A DNA stretch of 62,538 bases. It comes from Chloroflexota bacterium (GTDB lineage Bacteria > Chloroflexota > Dehalococcoidia > Lucifugimonadales > GCA-002723415). Below the pieces are notes generated by a model that saw nothing but the letters and a program-made list of their open reading frames with translations, ran no database searches and was not told the origin of the DNA. The DNA is taken from the NCBI GenBank assembly GCA_002721445.1, contig PBKN01000003.1, positions 1-62,538 of the forward strand. The letters run 5' to 3'. Made by a program: the position numbers and the translations under genes. Of this stretch, positions 25,582 through 62,526 are shown one piece after another (position 1 is the first letter of the stretch; every line of letters begins with the position of its first letter).

Positions 25582-25679
25582 TGGCGGGAGTGAGAGGGAG
25601 TCGAACCCACCGTAGGTACTGCGAAGTACCTGCCATCAGATTTGAAGTCTGTGAGGTCCACCGGGGCCTATTCACACCC
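25582..25679 (-). tRNA. selC: tRNA-Sec (anticodon TCA)
   Basis: This 98-nt minus-strand tRNA has the selenocysteine architecture: an 8-position acceptor stem, a 6-position D stem with 4-base loop (AGGCCC/GGACCT), anticodon loop CTTCAAA with TCA, a long variable arm (AGGTAC/GTACCT), T loop TTCGACT, discriminator G and an encoded CCA. There is one T-T mismatch in the acceptor (position 4), one C-A in the D stem and one T-T in the T stem. It would be charged with serine and converted by SelA (37,889), using selenophosphate from SelD (45,109). Confidence 0.92.
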
Positions 25680-50805: not shown

Positions 50806-50880
50806 TGGAGCGGGTGATGGGGATCGAACCCACGACATCCTGCTTGGGAAGCAGACACTCTACCACTGAGTTACACCCGC
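50806..50880 (-). tRNA. tRNA-Gly (anticodon CCC)
   Basis: The minus-strand cloverleaf has acceptor GCGGGTG/CACCCGC, D arm CTC/GAG, anticodon loop TTCCCAA (anticodon CCC), T loop TTCGATC, discriminator T and an encoded CCA. Its first 40 bases are repeated exactly, in opposite orientation, at 58,577-58,616. Confidence 0.95.
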
Positions 50881-52847: not shown

Positions 52848-52924
52848 GGGCCAGTAGCTCAGCTGGTTAGAGTGCAGTCCTGATAAGACTGAGGTCCCTG
52901 GTTCGAGTCCAGGCTGGCCCACCA
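52848..52924 (+). tRNA. tRNA-Ile (anticodon GAT)
   Basis: The plus-strand cloverleaf has acceptor GGGCCAG/CTGGCCC, D arm, anticodon loop CTGATAA (GAT), T loop TTCGAGT, discriminator A and encoded CCA at 52,922-52,924. The accessory island starts directly after the CCA. Confidence 0.96.
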
Positions 52925-52949: not shown

Positions 52950-53144
52950 TTATTTTTCTACAATAACTTCTTTAATAACTTCTACTTCTTGGGTAATTAT
53001 TTGTGGTGTAGGTGTAGGGATAATTGCTAATCTAGCTTCAACGGTAGCATCAATATCAGCAGTAGACGCACCTGTAGCTTGTCCAGTGGCACAAGCGGGG
53101 ATAAGGAAGAGTAAACCAATTGCTAATAGATATTTAACTTTCAT
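52950..53144 (-). pseudogene. Truncated lipoprotein (64-codon remnant)
   Basis: The frame encodes a lipoprotein signal peptide (MKVKYLLAIGLLFLIPACA, lipobox IPAC) and a linker ending EVEVIKEVIVEK before a TAA. The same frame continues after the stop as VVIEVPKEV, the natural continuation of such valine-glutamate repeats, until it runs into the 3' end of tRNA-Ile. The N-terminal region is nearly the same as in the 718-residue lipoprotein at 60,370-62,526. It therefore looks like the broken end of a longer gene, cut at the tRNA. The 64-residue lipoprotein could still be made: GAGAGG lies upstream. Confidence 0.75.
53122..53141. repeat. 20-bp direct repeat, left copy (cassette boundary)
   Basis: GCTAATAGATATTTAACTTT is identical to 54,179-54,198. 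It covers codons 2-8 of the truncated lipoprotein (minus strand AAAGTTAAATATCTATTAGC). The two copies flank the nuclease gene with a 1,057-bp period. Confidence 0.9.
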
Positions 53145-53148
53145 CCCC

Positions 53149-54165
53149 TTAAACCTCTCTAGGAGTTGTTTTTATTGTTCCAGAAAGTGTGTCGTACACA
53201 CTTTGAGGGATAGGAGTTAATACTCCACCATTATTAGTGGATTTAACTACTGAATCATTTAATGAACCTTCTATTACTGTATTCAATAAAATCGGTTTAT
53301 TCGTTGTTCCAAACTCCTCATCTAAAATATTAAAGTCTATAAAATGTACCCATTGCCTATCTGATACATTACTAATCTGTGTTTCAAAAAAGTCAGCTTG
53401 TTCACCTTCTAAACAGATATAATAGGGGTCTGTTATTTGTACTTCTGCCCATCCTAAAATATCAATATTACGATTCCCAATATCTTTTTTTAATGCCATA
53501 CTATCTTTACGACTCTTAAAAAAAAGAAAAATCAGTTTATCGTTTTTTTGTAAGTTAAATATTTGCCTAGTCACGAAGGATTTGTTGGCAAATGCCCAAA
53601 AATATTGTTTCGTAGAATCTCTCATTCTTTGAAAATTATCTAAAGCTGGTTCTCCACGCAAAGCTACTAACCATTTATTAGAACTTTCGGCTGAAATCCC
53701 TTTACTTGCTAACGAATCACCAGTAAGCGTAAAAATTCTTCGTGCCATCCATTCTTGGAAATATACAGGTTCGATTTCAACACATGGAACTTCAACTTCA
53801 ACATCTTTATATAACACTACCAAAAAGCCATTATTATTTTTTATATACTCAACTTGATGTTTAGCTTTAAAATCACTGGATTTCCATTTTATTTCTACAG
53901 GGATGTAAGGCTTATAACCTTCAAAATATAGAGAGAAGTCTTGTCTATACCCTGATTGATTAGTTTTACTAGAATCTTCTGGTACTACAAGTTTTAGTTT
54001 GGATGTTTTTATTTCATCCCCTAATCCATCTGGTATTAATTTCTTTTTTTGAAGACCAGCAGAATAAAAATACAAAGCTTCTAAGTAAAATCGATGAAGT
54101 AATTTTTCATTAAATGGATTTCTATTTAATGATTTTTTTTGGCTTCGTATTGTTTTGCTATTCAT
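53149..54165 (-). CDS. PD-(D/E)XK nuclease with an EVE/PUA-like C-domain, candidate modification-dependent restriction enzyme
   Basis: The 338-residue protein has an N-terminal region with RQDFSLYF (D76) and PVEIKWK (E91, K93), the D...ExK spacing of PD-(D/E)XK nucleases. The second half (about 185-295) reads YFWAFANK ... NDKLIFLFFK ... ILGWAEV ... RQWVHFIDF, a pattern resembling EVE/YTH/PUA modified-base-binding barrels. I infer a nuclease that reads a modified base; I do not recognise a named family. It forms the single gene of an insert between 20-bp repeats. Its ATG follows three bases after the stop of a 12-codon remnant of the lipoprotein start (MFAKVKYLLALR), so it borrows that gene's expression signals. 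Confidence 0.6.
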   Translation of the reverse strand: MNSKTIRSQKKSLNRNPFNEKLLHRFYLEALYFYSAGLQKKKLIPDGLGDEIKTSKLKLVVPEDSSKTNQSGYRQDFSLYFEGYKPYIPVEIKWKSSDFKAKHQVEYIKNNNGFLVVLYKDVEVEVPCVEIEPVYFQEWMARRIFTLTGDSLASKGISAESSNKWLVALRGEPALDNFQRMRDSTKQYFWAFANKSFVTRQIFNLQKNDKLIFLFFKSRKDSMALKKDIGNRNIDILGWAEVQITDPYYICLEGEQADFFETQISNVSDRQWVHFIDFNILDEEFGTTNKPILLNTVIEGSLNDSVVKSTNNGGVLTPIPQSVYDTLSGTIKTTPREV

Positions 54166-54168
54166 ACT

Positions 54169-54207
54169 TCACCTTAACGCTAATAGATATTTAACTTTAG
54201 CAAACAT
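54169..54207 (-). pseudogene. 12-codon leader left from the lipoprotein start
   Basis: ATG at 54,207 starts MFAKVKYLLA, exactly as in the lipoprotein at 62,526, then reads LR and stops with TGA at 54,169-54,171. The identity breaks off right after GCTAATAG... codon 9. The AGGTGA made by the last codons also serves as ribosome binding site for the nuclease ATG at 54,165, so the remnant acts as a coupled leader peptide. Confidence 0.7.
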
Positions 54208-54219
54208 TTAGTTATTACT
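54179..54219. repeat. 41-bp repeat, identical to the last 41 bases of the window; includes the right 20-bp cassette repeat
   Basis: Positions 54,179-54,219 equal 62,498-62,538 base for base. The segment holds the lipoprotein start codon and its upstream region. The left limit is real (the next base differs); the right limit is the window end. Confidence 0.92.
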
Positions 54220-54681
54220 TTCGATTAGATATCACATAATATTTATATTAAAAATATAATGTATTTTCAAGAGTAAAACTACCTAACTAATTAAATCTAA
54301 TTAGATAAATATAATCTATTTACGTTTATATTATAAATTACAAATAAACACTTTTATAAAAAGAATAGAGCATTAAATTGCAAATACCATCCCCTTAGGG
54401 GATGAAGTCAGTTTAGGTTGACGACTACCCTCGACTGTTATTATAAATTACCCTCACAATGATACCTGCCTTAATATAATCTAAGAGGCTCTAGGGTGCC
54501 TATATAGCGAAGGTAATATACATACAATTAATACCCTAGTTATACTGAAAAAAGATGGGACTCCTAACCATAAAGTAGGGTCTTCTCTACAGAGTAAAAT
54601 TTTCAATAATTGGACTTATGCTATCTAAATTGACAACATTAGTTATACTAAGCATAAATAAAAAATGCAGGAGAGTAAATT
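54220..54681. other. Non-coding island region with hairpins, function unknown
   Basis: No gene is visible in these 460 bases. Structure is: a perfect 7-bp hairpin CATCCCC-TTA-GGGGATG at 54,388-54,404; CTAGGGT (54,491-54,497) complementary to ACCCTAG (54,533-54,539); and two TACCCTC copies near 54,430 and 54,455. It is locally less A+T-rich than its flanks. It could hold a regulatory RNA, an element origin or long upstream regions of the nuclease and small-protein genes. I cannot choose between these. Confidence 0.45.
54630..54658 (+). promoter_or_regulatory. Sigma-70-like promoter for the 34-aa membrane protein
   Basis: TTGACA at 54,630-54,635, a 17-base spacer, then CATAAA at 54,653-54,658. 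Transcription would start about 54,665, just before AGGAG at 54,669-54,673 and the ATG at 54,682. Confidence 0.5.
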
Positions 54682-54786
54682 ATGTGGGAGAAAATTGGTG
54701 GCATAATTGGATTCTTGGTGGTTCTAGTCGTATTAGGTGTTGGATTGTACATATTTTACCAAGTGATGATGGGTTGGGAGGCGTGA
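54682..54786 (+). CDS. Small membrane protein (34 aa)
   Basis: The frame encodes MWEKIGGIIGF, a single hydrophobic helix through residue about 26 and a tail QVMMGWEA, with AGGAG nine bases upstream and a promoter-like pair before it. Size, one helix and good signals resemble small toxins, holins or regulatory membrane peptides of mobile elements, but no family is recognised. It is the only plus-strand gene in this part of the island. Confidence 0.6.
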   Translation: MWEKIGGIIGFLVVLVVLGVGLYIFYQVMMGWEA

Positions 54787-54815
54787 CCCAAGTAGAGTAA
54801 AAATCCTATTCTTTC

Positions 54816-55094
54816 TTATACTGTAATAGTTTCTCTAGGTACTATAACCTCTTCATCATCAATATCATTAGTAATAACATTTTCCAAGTAAGATTTAAAG
54901 TTTGGTCGAGAATCTATCATTTCCATTAGTCTATCCATAAATCCTGTTTCTTGCTTTAATATCTTTTCCATTGTTCTTCTAGTAAATTTACTCTGCATAT
55001 ATTCTTCCTCCTCATTGAAATAATTACGATATACCAATAATAATTCATTTAGCGTAGTATCTTGTGGTTTATAAATTGATTTAGTTTTAAGCAT
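54816..55094 (-). CDS. Unknown island protein (92 aa)
   Basis: The protein is helical and charged: SIYKPQDTTLNELLLVYRNYFNEEEEYMQSKF, FMDRLMEMIDSRPNFKSYLENVI, acidic C-terminus. No recognised motif. A strong AGGAGG lies just 3 bases before the ATG. A palindrome and two direct repeats lie upstream, suggesting control. It follows the primase-like gene on the same strand. Confidence 0.6.
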   Translation of the reverse strand: MLKTKSIYKPQDTTLNELLLVYRNYFNEEEEYMQSKFTRRTMEKILKQETGFMDRLMEMIDSRPNFKSYLENVITNDIDDEEVIVPRETITV

Positions 55095-55319: not shown

Positions 55320-56774
55320 CTAAATAGATGTTCTGGACGTAACATATTTATCAATAATATCTTTATCTTTTATATCCCCAAAATCATTATGTTCGTCCTT
55401 AAATTCAATAACAGAAATATTTAAATTGGCTTCTTGTAATTTCCCAATAGCTGAATTTAATCCCCTATTACCAGTTTCATCATTATCGTATGCTAAACAT
55501 ACTTCTTGAGGATTAAGTTTTAGTAATTCGTATAACTGTGATTGAGACATTCCTGAAGCTACAGTAGCAACAACAGCAACTGAATTATAGCCAAAGTAAT
55601 TTAACCTAATAGTATCTAATGGCCCCTCAACAATTATTAAAGGGTTAGTATCTACTACTTTGTTAATACCAAATAAGTGATTACCATTACTGAATTTATT
55701 TTTAACCATATACTTCCCAGCTTCTGGATTGCTTTCCAAATATTCAGGGGTATTGCGAATCATATGTCCAACTTCCACACTATCTCTATTTAAATAAGGT
55801 AGGTAAACAGCACCTTCTTTAGATGTTTCTTTACAGTCAAAAGAGATAAGATGATTCCAGTCAAATCCTCTTTCAGTAATTATCCAATGGTCTTTTGATA
55901 ATTGTTTTAATTCTATAGCCGAATCAATCTTTCCTTGTTTAACAGGGACAATATTTTCTTGTGGGATTACATCTGTTTGTTTAGCTTCATCTTTAGTTAA
56001 GTATTTATTTTTTAATTCAAACCAATCTTTACCAGTTCGTTTCATAATTAGAGTAGGAAATTGACCGATTTTTCCACAGGCTAAACAATGCCACATATTC
56101 TTTAACCAACTATATCTATCTAGTTCAATGTTTGGTCTATTAACATCATCATGAAAAGGGCAAAATATTTTATTACCACTAGCAATCTCAGGTATGCAAT
56201 CACTTAATGCAGATTTCCAATCTATCTGTCCAATTTCTTTTTCAATATCATAATCACCCTCATTCTTGAATGCCTGAATATCAGATTGAAAGAAAGCATA
56301 TATATCATTAAATCGTTCATTAGTAACATGGGTAGGTATATTGCATAGGTAGCCATTCCCAAGCATTTTTATGTTGTTATTCAAATATTTAAGATTAGCT
56401 TCATCTAGCTTATTCCATTTGTTCTTATTAGTTACATAGGAAATCATGAAGTTAACTATTCCATACGCAAGCTGGCAAGAACAATAATTATCCATATGAG
56501 GTTTAATATGTTTTAGCTGTCCCTCTCTTGTTGCTTCTTTCTTTTGGTGAGGTTCTTCGTAACTTGCTCTATACTTAGACTCATTTTTATTACGATATTC
56601 ATATATATTTATTAGATGAGTTATTAAATCATCAGGTGCATACTTTTGATTCCAGCAAGCTTCAAATATTTTAAATAGTTCCCTAGCATTCAACTGGCAT
56701 AAATTTCCTCTTTCTCTAAAAGTACCAATTAACCAATCTACTTCATAGTCATAACTTCTTTTATTTTTAAGCAT
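55320..56774 (-). CDS. CHC2 zinc-finger / Toprim primase-like protein
   Basis: The 484-residue protein has an unrecognised helical N-domain (1-190), a CHC2-type zinc finger (C205-x2-H208 ... C230-x2-C233), a linker, and a Toprim domain (IIVEGPLDTIR with E383; LAYDNDETGNRG with D430 and D432). This is the DnaG-type primase plan without a helicase, common in phages and integrative elements for replicating the excised form. It lies 31 bases downstream of the integrase gene. Confidence 0.82.
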   Translation of the reverse strand: MLKNKRSYDYEVDWLIGTFRERGNLCQLNARELFKIFEACWNQKYAPDDLITHLINIYEYRNKNESKYRASYEEPHQKKEATREGQLKHIKPHMDNYCSCQLAYGIVNFMISYVTNKNKWNKLDEANLKYLNNNIKMLGNGYLCNIPTHVTNERFNDIYAFFQSDIQAFKNEGDYDIEKEIGQIDWKSALSDCIPEIASGNKIFCPFHDDVNRPNIELDRYSWLKNMWHCLACGKIGQFPTLIMKRTGKDWFELKNKYLTKDEAKQTDVIPQENIVPVKQGKIDSAIELKQLSKDHWIITERGFDWNHLISFDCKETSKEGAVYLPYLNRDSVEVGHMIRNTPEYLESNPEAGKYMVKNKFSNGNHLFGINKVVDTNPLIIVEGPLDTIRLNYFGYNSVAVVATVASGMSQSQLYELLKLNPQEVCLAYDNDETGNRGLNSAIGKLQEANLNISVIEFKDEHNDFGDIKDKDIIDKYVTSRTSI

Positions 56775-56805: not shown

Positions 56806-58008
56806 CTATTTATATATTGCGACTTTAGGGCGAGATGAATATTTATCAAACCTATTATTACTCTCTATAGATAGATGAGGTCTATTGGGTTGACTGCCTC
56901 CCATTACTTCACTCATCAAGTCTTTATTTTTGTTTCTTGTTTCATTGATAGGCTTTGCATATATCTTCTGGGTAATGGTGCTATCAGTATGCCCAGCCCA
57001 CTGCCTAACTACTTCAAGGTTCGTTCCATTATCAAGGTTATAAGAAATAAAGAACTTTCTAAATTGATGTGGTGTTTTGATATCGAAGTCAGGGTATTGT
57101 TCAAGCAAATGCTTTCTTGCCCTATGGAAATGCTTCTCTCTAAGGTTGTTAGGGCGAATAGGATTATTTTGTGTATTTAATGTAACGTATCCAGTTTCTT
57201 TACGGATTTTTAAAAGAAATGGTTTTAATAATGTTGGATAAGGTACATATCTTATGCTAGCTTTAGTTTTAGGTTTAGTTAATTTCCCCTTATCAGTTAT
57301 TTGCTGGTGGACATAAATGACGTTTTCGTCAAAATCTATATCCTCCCAATTCAGAGCTAATGCTTCCGCTATTCTGAGACCACATAGAGCCATAAAGCTA
57401 AAGACCAGAAATAAATGAGAATCTATAAAGTAATCTAAAAACCTTTGAACTGAGACAAGACTAATAACTGGCTCTGTATCAAACTCTTTATCTTTCGCTA
57501 TTTCTCTACTAAGGTCTTTTTGAACTAATTTTGAAATAGGATTTACTTGCAACCCTCTTTCTCTCTCAACATGCCAATTCATTATTGAGTAGAGTCTTTT
57601 ATTGACTCTTTGAGCCATTTTTACACTATTATTTTTAGATTGTTCTTTAACTTTATCTGCTAATTTAAAAGCAAAGGCTGTTGTAACTTCTTTCATTTTG
57701 GTTTTACCTATATAAGGTAGTAAATATTTATTAACTAACCATGTATATTCATCAAATGTCTTTTCAGTACATGTTGCTTTTATAAAATATAACCATTCAG
57801 AAATTTCATCTTTTAAAAGCATTTCATCTAAAAGGTTTTCTTCTGGTTTATCATTGTGAAAATTATCATATTGGATATTTGATTTTCTTTCCCAATCCAG
57901 CTTATTTTTCCCATAAACCATTTTCCAGCTACGGTCAGGCATAAGAGCTCTCTTCGTAAAATAACGTTGCCCATTTATAATCTGTATATTTTTTTTCTTA
58001 CTGCTCAT
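56806..58008 (-). CDS. int: Phage-type tyrosine integrase
   Basis: The 400-residue protein has an N-terminal arm/SAM-like region (LKDEISEWLYFIKATCTEKTFDEYTWLVNKYLLPYIG) and a catalytic domain with R (ALCGLRIAEALALNW), H-x-x-R (TPHQFRKFFISYNL), the H/W position (VRQWAGHTDSTITQKIYAK) and Tyr. It is longer and more divergent than the chromosomal Xer protein at 20,051. It would integrate and, with a directionality factor, excise the island. Upstream lie repeated AAGACGTTT-like motifs and a tRNA-Gly fragment, plausible arm and core sites. Confidence 0.9.
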   Translation of the reverse strand: MSSKKKNIQIINGQRYFTKRALMPDRSWKMVYGKNKLDWERKSNIQYDNFHNDKPEENLLDEMLLKDEISEWLYFIKATCTEKTFDEYTWLVNKYLLPYIGKTKMKEVTTAFAFKLADKVKEQSKNNSVKMAQRVNKRLYSIMNWHVERERGLQVNPISKLVQKDLSREIAKDKEFDTEPVISLVSVQRFLDYFIDSHLFLVFSFMALCGLRIAEALALNWEDIDFDENVIYVHQQITDKGKLTKPKTKASIRYVPYPTLLKPFLLKIRKETGYVTLNTQNNPIRPNNLREKHFHRARKHLLEQYPDFDIKTPHQFRKFFISYNLDNGTNLEVVRQWAGHTDSTITQKIYAKPINETRNKNKDLMSEVMGGSQPNRPHLSIESNNRFDKYSSRPKVAIYK

Positions 58009-58576: not shown

Positions 58577-58616
58577 GCGGGTGTAACTCAGTGGTAGAGT
58601 GTCTGCTTCCCAAGCA
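58577..58616 (+). other. tRNA-Gly 5' fragment (40 bp), candidate attachment core
   Basis: The 40 bases are identical to the 5' end through anticodon loop and start of the 3' anticodon stem of tRNA-Gly(CCC) at 50,806-50,880, and then diverge abruptly. The repeat starts exactly at the tRNA's first base. Tyrosine integrases often cross over in the anticodon loop, so this is probably an att remnant. The copy is inverted relative to the intact tRNA-Gly. Confidence 0.7.
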
Positions 58617-58726: not shown

Positions 58727-59359
58727 ATGACTCAGAAAAAATATGATGCAGTTAGAATAAGCCCAGAAGCTAAAGCAAAGCTAAAGCAATTGTGTGAGGA
58801 CAAAAATATCACAATGGCTAAAGGTCTTGACCAACTATTGAATATTGAAGGAGCCTTTACCAATAAAGAAATATACCAAGATGAAATAGATAAAATTACT
58901 AAAGACCCACAATTCCAAGAATCAATTGCCAAAGATAGACAAACAGTAATTGATATAGTTCGTAATCAGATTCCAACTAAACCTACTAAACCTCCTAGTG
59001 CCATAATTGATGCTTCTATTCTTTATTCATTCAAGCAACTAGGTAAAAAGACATTAACTCGTAAAGAGATTAAAGAATCTGTCATTACAATGATGCAAGA
59101 AAGCAAATATCCCACTACATGGGCTGAGGTATATTCCAACTGGTGGGAAAACTACCAAAGAAATAAAAGTAAGTTTGAATTGGACTTTGATAATAGACTA
59201 AGAAGACTTGTTAAAGATAAATTGATATCTAATGAAGCAAAGTCAGGTGAATATTCTCATAACTTAACTACAAAGCATTGGGATTATGTGGAGCAACTAG
59301 CAACAGGTTTTTACCCCCAAATAGTCATAGACAAGATTGCTAGTATTACCTTTAAGTAA
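58727..59359 (+). CDS. Ribbon-helix-helix regulator with a C-terminal helical domain
   Basis: Residues 5-45 (KYDAVRISPEAKAKLKQLCEDKNITMAKGLDQLL) form a strand and two helices like MetJ/Arc-type DNA-binding proteins. A charged linker follows, then a C-terminal helical region (about 90-190) including KTLTRKEIKESV and FDNRLRRLVKDKLISNEAKSGEYSH, which could be a second winged helix. It may regulate the element or act in partition or excision. Family not recognised. Confidence 0.65.
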   Translation: MTQKKYDAVRISPEAKAKLKQLCEDKNITMAKGLDQLLNIEGAFTNKEIYQDEIDKITKDPQFQESIAKDRQTVIDIVRNQIPTKPTKPPSAIIDASILYSFKQLGKKTLTRKEIKESVITMMQESKYPTTWAEVYSNWWENYQRNKSKFELDFDNRLRRLVKDKLISNEAKSGEYSHNLTTKHWDYVEQLATGFYPQIVIDKIASITFK

Positions 59360-59467: not shown

Positions 59468-60343
59468 TCATATCACATGATAATTTTTAATATTAACATT
59501 TGTATTTTTTCTAAAATAAATATGTTTGTTATTATTTGAATGTTCAAAAGATATACAAAACTCACCTAAAAACTTGTAAACTGTTTGCCCTAATTGATTT
59601 TGAGAATGTGCAAACACTATATTGTTTTTTTGATGCTCTTTAATCACTCCAATATCAGAGTTATCCGCTTTTTTCATTTCTATAACTTTTAAGTCATCAC
59701 TCAGTGAATTATTCCAATCTCTATTTTTATATAATTTAGGAAACCATAAATACTGCGATGTGCCTTTAATATTCCAAATTCCCTTTTGGAAATGTCCGCC
59801 TTTGTAACCAAAACATCTTAAGGCATCCCTTATATACAAAAAACTTATGTTATCTTTTATATCTAAATAACCTGTTTTTATATGAATGTCTGGGTCATAT
59901 TTGTGATAATAATTCCAAGCAACAAACTTTTTTTCTGAAATATATTTTTGTTTTCTTTCAATAATAAATTTCACTAACTTATCAATCTCCAAGTTGATAT
60001 CTTCAAGTTTTTTATAATTATATTTTTCGTCATACATTTTGATTCTTTTCTCAACAAAATCAGTGGCATCAACAATTTCTTCCATCCTTTTATCATCTAA
60101 AATTGAGTGCTCCTTTGAACTGTGTTGCAACTCATCTATTTCACAATATAAATTTAATTCTGGAAAACATAAGTCAGTTAAATATCTTTTATTATCTGAA
60201 GTTTTAACAAGTTGCTGACAAACAAATTCTAATTCAGGGTCATTTAATAAGTGAATAATCCTAGTAATCACATACAATTCCCATTTTTTATGCTGTATTT
60301 TGGAAAAGTTTCTTAATATGTACTCATCTTTAGATATTTTCAT
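59468..60343 (-). CDS. Vsr-like (AbaSI/PvuRts1I-type) restriction endonuclease candidate
   Basis: The 291-residue protein starts DEYILRNFSKIQHKKWELYVITRIIHLLNDPELEFVCQQ, followed by LTDLCFPELNLYCEIDELQH with D57, E68 and D70 spaced like a PD-(D/E)XK or Vsr nuclease. I know this start from the AbaSI/PvuRts1I family, which cuts DNA containing (glucosyl-)5-hydroxymethylcytosine and has a C-terminal SRA-like reader. The C-terminal half here (about 140-291: WNYYHKYDPDIHIKTGYLDI, FGYKGGHFQKGIWNI) is not clearly SRA. It would attack modified phage DNA; this is inference. Confidence 0.6.
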   Translation of the reverse strand: MKISKDEYILRNFSKIQHKKWELYVITRIIHLLNDPELEFVCQQLVKTSDNKRYLTDLCFPELNLYCEIDELQHSSKEHSILDDKRMEEIVDATDFVEKRIKMYDEKYNYKKLEDINLEIDKLVKFIIERKQKYISEKKFVAWNYYHKYDPDIHIKTGYLDIKDNISFLYIRDALRCFGYKGGHFQKGIWNIKGTSQYLWFPKLYKNRDWNNSLSDDLKVIEMKKADNSDIGVIKEHQKNNIVFAHSQNQLGQTVYKFLGEFCISFEHSNNNKHIYFRKNTNVNIKNYHVI

Positions 60344-60369
60344 ATTTACCTCAGCTAGTGAAGTGGTTA

Positions 60370-62526
60370 TTATTTCAATTTTTTAGCAGCATTGAGAGTT
60401 TCATCATCTAAAGCAATAGTAATACAATCCGTTTTTACTCCATTAGTCATTGTTCTTCCATCTAAGAAAATTGAGCCTCTATATTTTTGTTCATTACCTG
60501 TTTTATTTTCATCATAACCTGAGTCGAATTCATTTTTTGTAATTATAGATTTACTTTCTATATTAACGAAACTATCAGGTAGAGGGTTATTATCAATAAA
60601 GGCATTTTCTATATAAGCATTAGTTAGGGAAACATTAAATCTATTAAACTTAAAAAATGTATTCTCATAAAAACCTTGAATATTTGCAGAATTAGTTATA
60701 CCTGTACTTACTCCACATATACCTCCCAGATTAATACTTACATCAGTGTTATTAACTACCTTTGTCTTAAAATCACTAACTAAGCTTCTTGTAACACCTG
60801 AATCATCTACTAGACTTAATAGACCAATATTAAAAGGATTTTGAATTATATTATTTGGATATAGAGCGTTTAGTCTCCAACGGGAAGTATCAGTATTTTT
60901 CAATTTAATATCTATTTTTTCAGCACCTTGTTTCATCTCTATGAAATGCAAAAATACATTATTAGAGTTTGGCAATATAACATAATTTCCAGAAGGTTTT
61001 AATTCATCAGAAATAGTAGATATAGACTGAGAACCAATTTTAAAATTTTGATTATCTATATAAGCTGCTTCAAATTCCATTGAATAGGTTACAGGAAAAT
61101 TATTAGGGTTTTTTACTACAATCAAAATAGGTAAATACGGTATTTCAAATTTTTTAGCAATATTAGCTGTTTCCCAATCAATGTCTACTGGAAGAAGTTC
61201 AGCAATAGGTGTTGGCGTGGGGGTAGGGGTAGATATTAGCTTTAACGATTCAGACAACTTGAGAGTTTCCTCATCATACGTAAAAAAATTGCATTCAGTT
61301 TTCAATCCAGATTCATTAGTTGTACCATCAAGCAATATTGAGCCTGTGTACTTATCTTCATCTAATATTTTTAGATTCTGTATGCCGTTATTGGTGAGTT
61401 CATCAAAATCAATATTGAATCTAGAAAAAACATCATATTCAGATATTTTGATTTTCGTATTTGCTTTAATTCGTGGGATAAAAGTATTATTTTTATAAAA
61501 TTTTACTTCAGTAGAACTAAGATGAGTAATATCTGGGAATTTTGTGGATACTATCTCCAAAGGCCTTTTTACTTCACAATAACCATGGACCGATATATCT
61601 ATATCAAAATCATTCTTTACCCATTCTCCATCTAGTTTTAGTAAGCCACTAAAAAAAGGATTCGGAATCGGATTATAGTTAGCGTAGTCAATGAGAGCAT
61701 CTTCGCCACCAACATAATAATTGAGATAACCTCTGTCAAACTCTAGACCATACTGTCCTGGAATTAAAAATACTGACTTGCTAAAAGGCTCCGTCAAGAT
61801 AAGAGGATAGTGGCCCCATGGGCCAGGTACAATTTCCCAACTATCCAACTCTGTCTTACCGTACTTTAAGCCTTCCTCATCGATTAAGTCTTTTTCCAAT
61901 CCAAAATCAATAAATATATATTTATCCATTGGATTATCGATAACAATTAATTTGTCATCAAAATTGATTGTAGGCGTAGCTGTGGGTATTGGAGTAGCTG
62001 TAGGCGTAGCAGTAGGGGTTGCTGTTGGATATCTATCTATACCATCATCATGTATTGCTACACATTTTTCACCATCTGTAAAAGTATAGTCATCTATTTT
62101 TATCATCTCCAAGCCTCGTTTTTTACATTCTGCTATGTGCCATTCTGTTAAAGTCTTTACTGTAAGTGGAAGTGGTGTTGGAGTTGGTGTTGCAGTCGGT
62201 GGTATTGGCACAGGAGTTGGAGTAGGAGTAACAGTTGGGGGTATAGCTGTAGGAGGCATAGGTGTAGGAGTAACAGTTGGGGGTATAGCTGTAGGAGTAA
62301 CAGTTGGTGGTAACGGTGTAGGTATAACAGTTGGAGAGATAGGTGTAGGTGTTGAGGTTACTTCTTGAATTACTATCTGTGGTGTAGGTGTAAGAATGCT
62401 AGCTACCCTCGCTTCAACGGTTGCATCAATATCAACAGCAGATGAACCTGTAGTTTGTCCAGTGGCACAAGCGGGGATAAGGAAAAGAAATCCAATTGCT
62501 AATAGATATTTAACTTTAGCAAACAT
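60370..62526 (-). CDS. Large Thr-Pro-rich lipoprotein with two repeated domains
   Basis: The 718-residue protein has a type II signal peptide (KVKYLLAIGFLFLIPACA), a spacer, a Thr-Pro repeat stalk (about 45-125 and again near 165-190), then two similar domains. The first ends KYTGSILLDGTTNESGLKTECNFFTYDEETLKL, the second ends KYRGSIFLDGRTMTNGVKTDCITIALDDETLNA. A third T-P tract separates them. It would be anchored outside the membrane and reach through the envelope. Function unknown. Its first codons and upstream region equal 54,179-54,219. Confidence 0.82.
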   Translation of the reverse strand: MFAKVKYLLAIGFLFLIPACATGQTTGSSAVDIDATVEARVASILTPTPQIVIQEVTSTPTPISPTVIPTPLPPTVTPTAIPPTVTPTPMPPTAIPPTVTPTPTPVPIPPTATPTPTPLPLTVKTLTEWHIAECKKRGLEMIKIDDYTFTDGEKCVAIHDDGIDRYPTATPTATPTATPIPTATPTINFDDKLIVIDNPMDKYIFIDFGLEKDLIDEEGLKYGKTELDSWEIVPGPWGHYPLILTEPFSKSVFLIPGQYGLEFDRGYLNYYVGGEDALIDYANYNPIPNPFFSGLLKLDGEWVKNDFDIDISVHGYCEVKRPLEIVSTKFPDITHLSSTEVKFYKNNTFIPRIKANTKIKISEYDVFSRFNIDFDELTNNGIQNLKILDEDKYTGSILLDGTTNESGLKTECNFFTYDEETLKLSESLKLISTPTPTPTPIAELLPVDIDWETANIAKKFEIPYLPILIVVKNPNNFPVTYSMEFEAAYIDNQNFKIGSQSISTISDELKPSGNYVILPNSNNVFLHFIEMKQGAEKIDIKLKNTDTSRWRLNALYPNNIIQNPFNIGLLSLVDDSGVTRSLVSDFKTKVVNNTDVSINLGGICGVSTGITNSANIQGFYENTFFKFNRFNVSLTNAYIENAFIDNNPLPDSFVNIESKSIITKNEFDSGYDENKTGNEQKYRGSIFLDGRTMTNGVKTDCITIALDDETLNAAKKLK
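62160..62370. repeat. Thr-Pro-coding tandem repeat DNA
   Basis: This part of the lipoprotein gene is built of short units coding for T-P-T, P-P-T-V and A-I-P-P. A 33-bp unit at 62,222-62,254 is repeated exactly at 62,264-62,296 (42-bp period). Such DNA is prone to slippage and length change. Confidence 0.8.

Follow-up and report, generated by a model that had tools for sequence, protein, structure and literature searches.

A putative nuclease gene between two parts of a repeated lipoprotein leader at the tRNA-Ile end of a probable integrative island in a Chloroflexota bacterium

How did a gene for a putative nuclease come to stand inside the start of a lipoprotein gene, with the same 20 nt at both joints? 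The layout that raises this question was described in a first-pass annotation of the window (the whole stretch of 62,538 nt analysed here), and the description is exact: the lipoprotein start is split, 20-bp direct repeats lie at both joints, and the nuclease gene is between them (Table 1). Sequence search of the window located the 20-mer AAAGTTAAATATCTATTAGC as exact minus-strand copies at the two joints, 1,057 nt apart, and the insert between these repeats is 1,037 nt long, holds one gene, and is nearly all coding. The number of such 20-mers expected by chance in the window is 0.12 even with three mismatches allowed, so the repeat is not a chance one. Read on the minus strand, the lipoprotein upstream region leads into ATG-MFAKVKYLLALR-TGA, then agt and the nuclease ATG; the nuclease TAA is followed by GGGG and ATG-KVKYLLAIGLLFLIPACATG.... 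Both joint copies of the 20-mer reported earlier are present, but the count of two was incomplete: a third copy lies in the window at 62498–62517 (minus strand) and a fourth on contig C11 (448–467, minus strand), and these make four exact copies in the genome.

Table 1. Annotated features of the locus and of the neighbouring DNA, with positions in the window
Feature	Position	Strand	Basis
tRNA-Ile(GAT), 3' end with CCA; island edge	52848..52924	+	ARAGORN
Lipoprotein remnant (copy 2): downstream half, ending in TAA after 64 codons	52950..53144	-	
20-nt direct repeat, copy 2	53122..53141	-	sequence search
Orphan 338-aa putative PD-(D/E)XK-type nuclease	53149..54165	-	ORF; motif only
12-codon leader peptide MFAKVKYLLALR-TGA	54169..54207	-	sequence and frame check
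20-nt direct repeat, copy 1	54179..54198	-	sequence search
Leader module, upstream half (copy 1): 5' region and start codon (54207-54205), MFAKVKYLLA, followed by LR-stop	54179..54300	-	
92-aa small ORF of unknown function	54816..55094	-	ORF list, profile searches
Phage/satellite-type DNA primase (zinc ribbon and Toprim)	55320..56774	-	Toprim_2 E 1.3e-11; phrog_47 DNA primase E 1.5e-23
Tyrosine integrase	56806..58008	-	PF00589 E 7e-17; phrog_1 E 2.5e-49
210-aa protein, family also on C11 and C15	58727..59359	+	tblastn E 5e-11 and 4e-11
PvuRts1I-like modification-dependent restriction endonuclease with SRA domain	59468..60343	-	PF18491 E 1.4e-23; PF21598 E 4.8e-20; PADLOC mREase_II E 1.1e-83
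Copy 3: intact 718-aa lipoprotein, same leader	60370..62526	-	
41-nt leader core, identical in copies 1 and 4; contig end	62498..62538	-	

Copies 3 and 4 each start an intact lipoprotein, MFAKVKYLLAIGFLFLIPACATG..., and share 79 identical nt in front of unrelated bodies. The body behind copy 3 is Pro/Thr-rich, and that behind copy 4 is PD40-repeat-like, a name given from the repeat pattern by eye and not from a profile match. Identity among copies 1, 3, and 4 covers 41 nt (AGTAATAACTAA-ATG-TTTGCT-20-mer). Copy 1 is 89% identical over 122 nt to C11:448–569, where the module starts an intact lipoprotein, and over 159 nt copy 2 has 86% identity to the beginning of the copy 3 gene. Because copy 1 matches upstream of the joint only and copy 2 downstream of it only, the two complement each other as partial copies of a single gene type. 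When the flanks of the insert are joined, an intact lipoprotein start is read (158/180 identical to copy 3), which agrees with an insertion, although two fragments of the same family overlapping by 20 nt would look alike. The TAA of copy 2 (52950–52952) stands 25 nt from the tRNA, and the frame continues to the tRNA-Ile 3' end (52924). As a remnant, copy 2 is probably not a working gene.

The leader peptide and the nuclease ATG are in one frame with one TGA between them; the ATG comes 3 nt after the leader, and AAGGTG is found 4 nt upstream of it. It is plausible that translation of the nuclease is coupled to the leader, with expression driven by the sequence upstream of the lipoprotein start. 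Matches to promoter-like sequences in this region were not above chance. The copy 2 ATG after the nuclease stop has GAGAGG about 9 nt upstream; the earlier statement that both genes stay expressible after insertion applies to this second gene formally only, and its expression is doubtful in a truncated copy. Decoding of the leader's TGA as selenocysteine, with continuation into the nuclease, was considered and set aside, as the same frame arises by chance in one case out of three. A tRNA-SeC gene was predicted by ARAGORN at 25582–25679 (minus strand), which suggests selenoprotein synthesis in this organism.

The 338-aa product is designated as a putative nuclease according to its D...ExK motif (QDFSLYF...PVEIKWK), a PD-(D/E)XK signature. 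No Pfam, NCBIfam, or PADLOC family matched it at E 1 or better, and it had one meaningless match in PHROGs (E 0.28) and one among PDB sequences (E 1). Viral contigs, 50,697 phages, 72,556 plasmids, and 250 same-order and 400 same-phylum genomes contained no homologue, and the single-sequence structure model was unusable (pLDDT 31). The putative nuclease probably acts in defence or against mobile elements. The neighbouring PvuRts1I-like gene is likewise a restriction-type cargo gene, placed directly downstream of the copy 3 lipoprotein with its leader of the same family, but the putative nuclease has no detected sequence relationship to PvuRts1I-family enzymes. The sequence AATAACCACTTCACTA shared ahead of the PvuRts1I-like gene (60356–60371) was rejected as being at chance level (E 0.43).

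The tRNA-Ile end, the tyrosine integrase, the Toprim primase, and the PvuRts1I-like enzyme together lead to an island reading, and the locus is probably the tRNA-Ile-side end of a tRNA-anchored integrative island. The integrase matches phage-type families and is the only clear tyrosine integrase found when the own genome was searched. The 24-nt 3' end of the tRNA-Ile occurs once in the assembly with up to three mismatches allowed, with no second attachment site found, and the contig ends inside the island (62538). Islands anchored at tRNA genes and equipped with a tyrosine recombinase and cargo have been described from streamlined aquatic bacteria as tycheposons (PMC10872708). As far as it is visible on the contig, the island fits this general kind: it shares with tycheposons and with the PICMI/PICI-like satellites of marine bacteria a tyrosine integrase, a primase-type gene, a tRNA edge, and defence-type cargo. 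It differs from them in that no second attachment site was recovered from the incomplete contig and in that the cargo boundaries lie inside a lipoprotein leader. A parallel layout occurs in a same-order relative (L126, 3723–8669), where a tRNA-Pro island carries a gene of HNH-like type together with a related integrase and small lipoproteins; this genome is therefore not alone in having tRNA islands loaded with nuclease and lipoprotein genes.

Two other elements of the island were recorded. The 5' half of a tRNA-Gly(CCC) gene is present at 58577–58616 (plus strand), with about 40 nt identical to the complete tRNA-Gly at 50806–50880 (minus strand); it breaks off after the anticodon stem and may be what remains of a past attachment event. 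The 210-aa protein belongs to paralogous proteins of 210–270 aa and unknown function, coded in three genome regions: 58727–59359 (plus strand), L008 6035–6730, and L055 8599–9417.

Beyond the island, the leader precedes different genes elsewhere in this genome, in partial support of the first-pass annotation: besides the 718-aa lipoprotein gene at 62526 and the PD40-repeat lipoprotein gene on C11, these are a membrane gene on C15 and a gene on C2. On C15, it is the upstream part of the module that stands before the membrane gene. The module on C15 (L055, 737–2817) is split by a 1,967-bp insert precisely between the C11-contiguous bases 551|550, and this insert carries two genes, a molybdopterin-type oxidase and a CxxC protein (both named by eye). 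This is a second example of gene insertion into the leader module. C2 has the coding part of a related leader only, after a foreign upstream sequence, and C13 has only a distal upstream piece of the module. The leader is an ordinary 5' module that recurs in a family of paralogous lipoproteins. Matches to the 20-mer with three mismatches on C4 and C10 were discarded, being no lipoprotein leaders. A short intergenic repeat, AATAATTGGRCTTATGCTATCT, was also observed at 54606–54800 (plus strand) and on C11, C13, and C15; it precedes a possible 34-aa membrane peptide, and its 3' portion aligns at 87% with the 3' end of the C2 lipoprotein locus. At the right end of contig C7 (L111), the last bases are G+C-rich, as against the low G+C content of the genome, and this contig end is possibly chimeric.

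The explanation that we tentatively place first, short of being confident in it, is that the nuclease gene was inserted into a lipoprotein gene of the tRNA-Ile island by ordinary short-homology or illegitimate recombination at the repeated leader. Breaks in the module fall at many positions, as general mosaic recombination at short repeats would produce them. The course of events would be as follows. The host is a low-G+C Chloroflexota bacterium, probably of the class Dehalococcoidia and of a SAR202-like order, as its lipoprotein style suggests, and the locus would be the tRNA-Ile-side end of its island. The island and several other loci carry paralogous lipoprotein genes that have one 5' module in common, made up of the upstream region, the start, and the signal peptide, and the nuclease cargo gene would have been placed at codon 10 of the last of them. 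The 20-nt repeat would be either the homologous stretch that was used or a short duplication produced by the event, after which the lipoprotein's distal half would have decayed to a remnant against the tRNA. For RecA-dependent exchange, 20 bp is short, which counts against recombination at the leader. A recognised route of this sort is homology-facilitated illegitimate recombination (PMC3240628), with the likeness that foreign DNA is joined to the chromosome with homology on one side and the difference that the event is here read from anatomy only. A natural empty allele of this locus was not found, and copies 3 and 4 are paralogs, not alleles. The repeats, the four leader copies with their shuffled contexts, the island genes, and the truncation of copy 2 are seen in the sequence; insertion rather than deletion, expression and activity of the nuclease, and current mobility are inferred.

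A smaller but real possibility is that no insertion took place. The nuclease gene would originally have stood between two lipoprotein paralogs, and a deletion would have removed the body of the first one, from codon 10 to just before the nuclease. Copy 2 would then be a separate truncated paralog starting with M-KVKYLLA, and the 20-nt repeat would be the overlap of family members. An intact lipoprotein-then-nuclease order does exist in the same island (60370–62526, then 59468–60343), and copy 2 lacks MFA at its start and, as in the C2 paralog, is preceded by an upstream sequence of its own. Moreover, whereas copy 1 agrees with copies 3 and 4 at all 41 nt, copy 2 already departs from both of them less than 30 nt away from the repeat; a common origin of the two halves in a single gene is hence not required. 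Against this, a deletion calls for two junctions to have arisen independently, each within the opening codons of a gene, and no sequence of any deleted lipoprotein body remains.

It is improbable that the leader is a dedicated recombination site, at which circular cassettes of one gene are integrated into the 20-mer by a recombinase, or the genes that follow the leader are exchanged by it. This possibility was compared to the leader-based switching of the Mycoplasma vsa/vpma lipoproteins, and some features of the locus speak for it: a common upstream region and leader stand ahead of different bodies, a tyrosine recombinase is coded in the same island, the insert is compact and almost without non-coding DNA, and strong identity is restricted to the leader core. 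The end of contig C3 within the 79-nt stretch identical to C11 is compatible with alternative continuations, but is no proof of them. Nothing in the data, nevertheless, speaks positively for the special leader-based capture mechanism suggested by the first-pass annotation. Terminal inverted repeats are missing from the insert, the 20-mer has no palindromic core (a Xer/dif-like site in it was ruled out on this ground), and the junctions of the other leader copies are at different positions of the module, which argues against one fixed docking codon. All three copies in the window have one orientation, with no cassette array, and the integrase matches phage-type families and sits in a tRNA-bounded island. 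The proposal that in this free-living bacterium the leader is a reusable docking sequence, with unrelated genes (lipoproteins, restriction nucleases) swapped or inserted behind one upstream region and leader by recombination at the conserved start and moved by the tyrosine recombinase of the island, is also rated as improbable.

In the Mycoplasma vsa/vpma systems, different lipoprotein bodies are brought by recombination behind a single upstream region and amino terminus (PMC4534519, PMC2824730). The likeness is one 5' leader module before different lipoprotein bodies, seen here in copies 3 and 4 with their identical 79 nt, and the existence of some copies without the upstream part. The differences are that the module breaks on C15, C2, C13, and in copy 1 are not the same, in place of a constant junction; that a putative cytosolic nuclease stands behind one leader; and that the locus has no inversion, silent array, or demonstrated recombination site. 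The expectation that other genomes would have inserts at this leader was also not borne out: 58 same-order relatives, GTDB contigs, and IMG/VR gave chance matches only. Exact or degenerate matches to the 20-mer in GTDB contigs and IMG/VR were all in unrelated contexts, and the upstream motif and the longer leader are absent from IMG/VR. This absence of the leader elsewhere counts against a dedicated site, but weakly, because there is no close relative among the genomes searched.

A transposon-like element with a 20-bp target duplication would account for the direct repeats on both sides, but it is very improbable, since the insert ends have no terminal inverted repeats (best inverted match 8/15, as compared with a shuffle average of 7.6), the only ORF of the insert has no transposase-family match, 20 bp is atypically long for a target duplication, and DNA search of the own genome revealed no copies with the same ends. 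An IS insertion was rejected on the missing inverted ends and transposase. An integron cassette is probably also not what stands here: there was no Rfam match, the insert ends are not inverted repeats, and the integrase matches phage-type families. An assembly chimera at the repeated leader is just as improbable: the contig ends within another leader copy and contig ends overlap other contigs by 47–119 nt, but this assembly broke only at overlaps longer than the joint repeats of 20 and 41 nt, so the assembler could presumably separate them, and the flanks of copy 1 differ from the other copies (89%).

If the leader were a true recombination site, it would represent a new route of gene capture; the present evidence favours ordinary recombination. 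On that explanation, the locus is a snapshot of accessory-gene assembly in a streamlined, uncultured marine-type bacterium, in which short repeated 5' modules of surface-protein genes would be the seams joining restriction-type nuclease cargo at the edge of a tRNA island.
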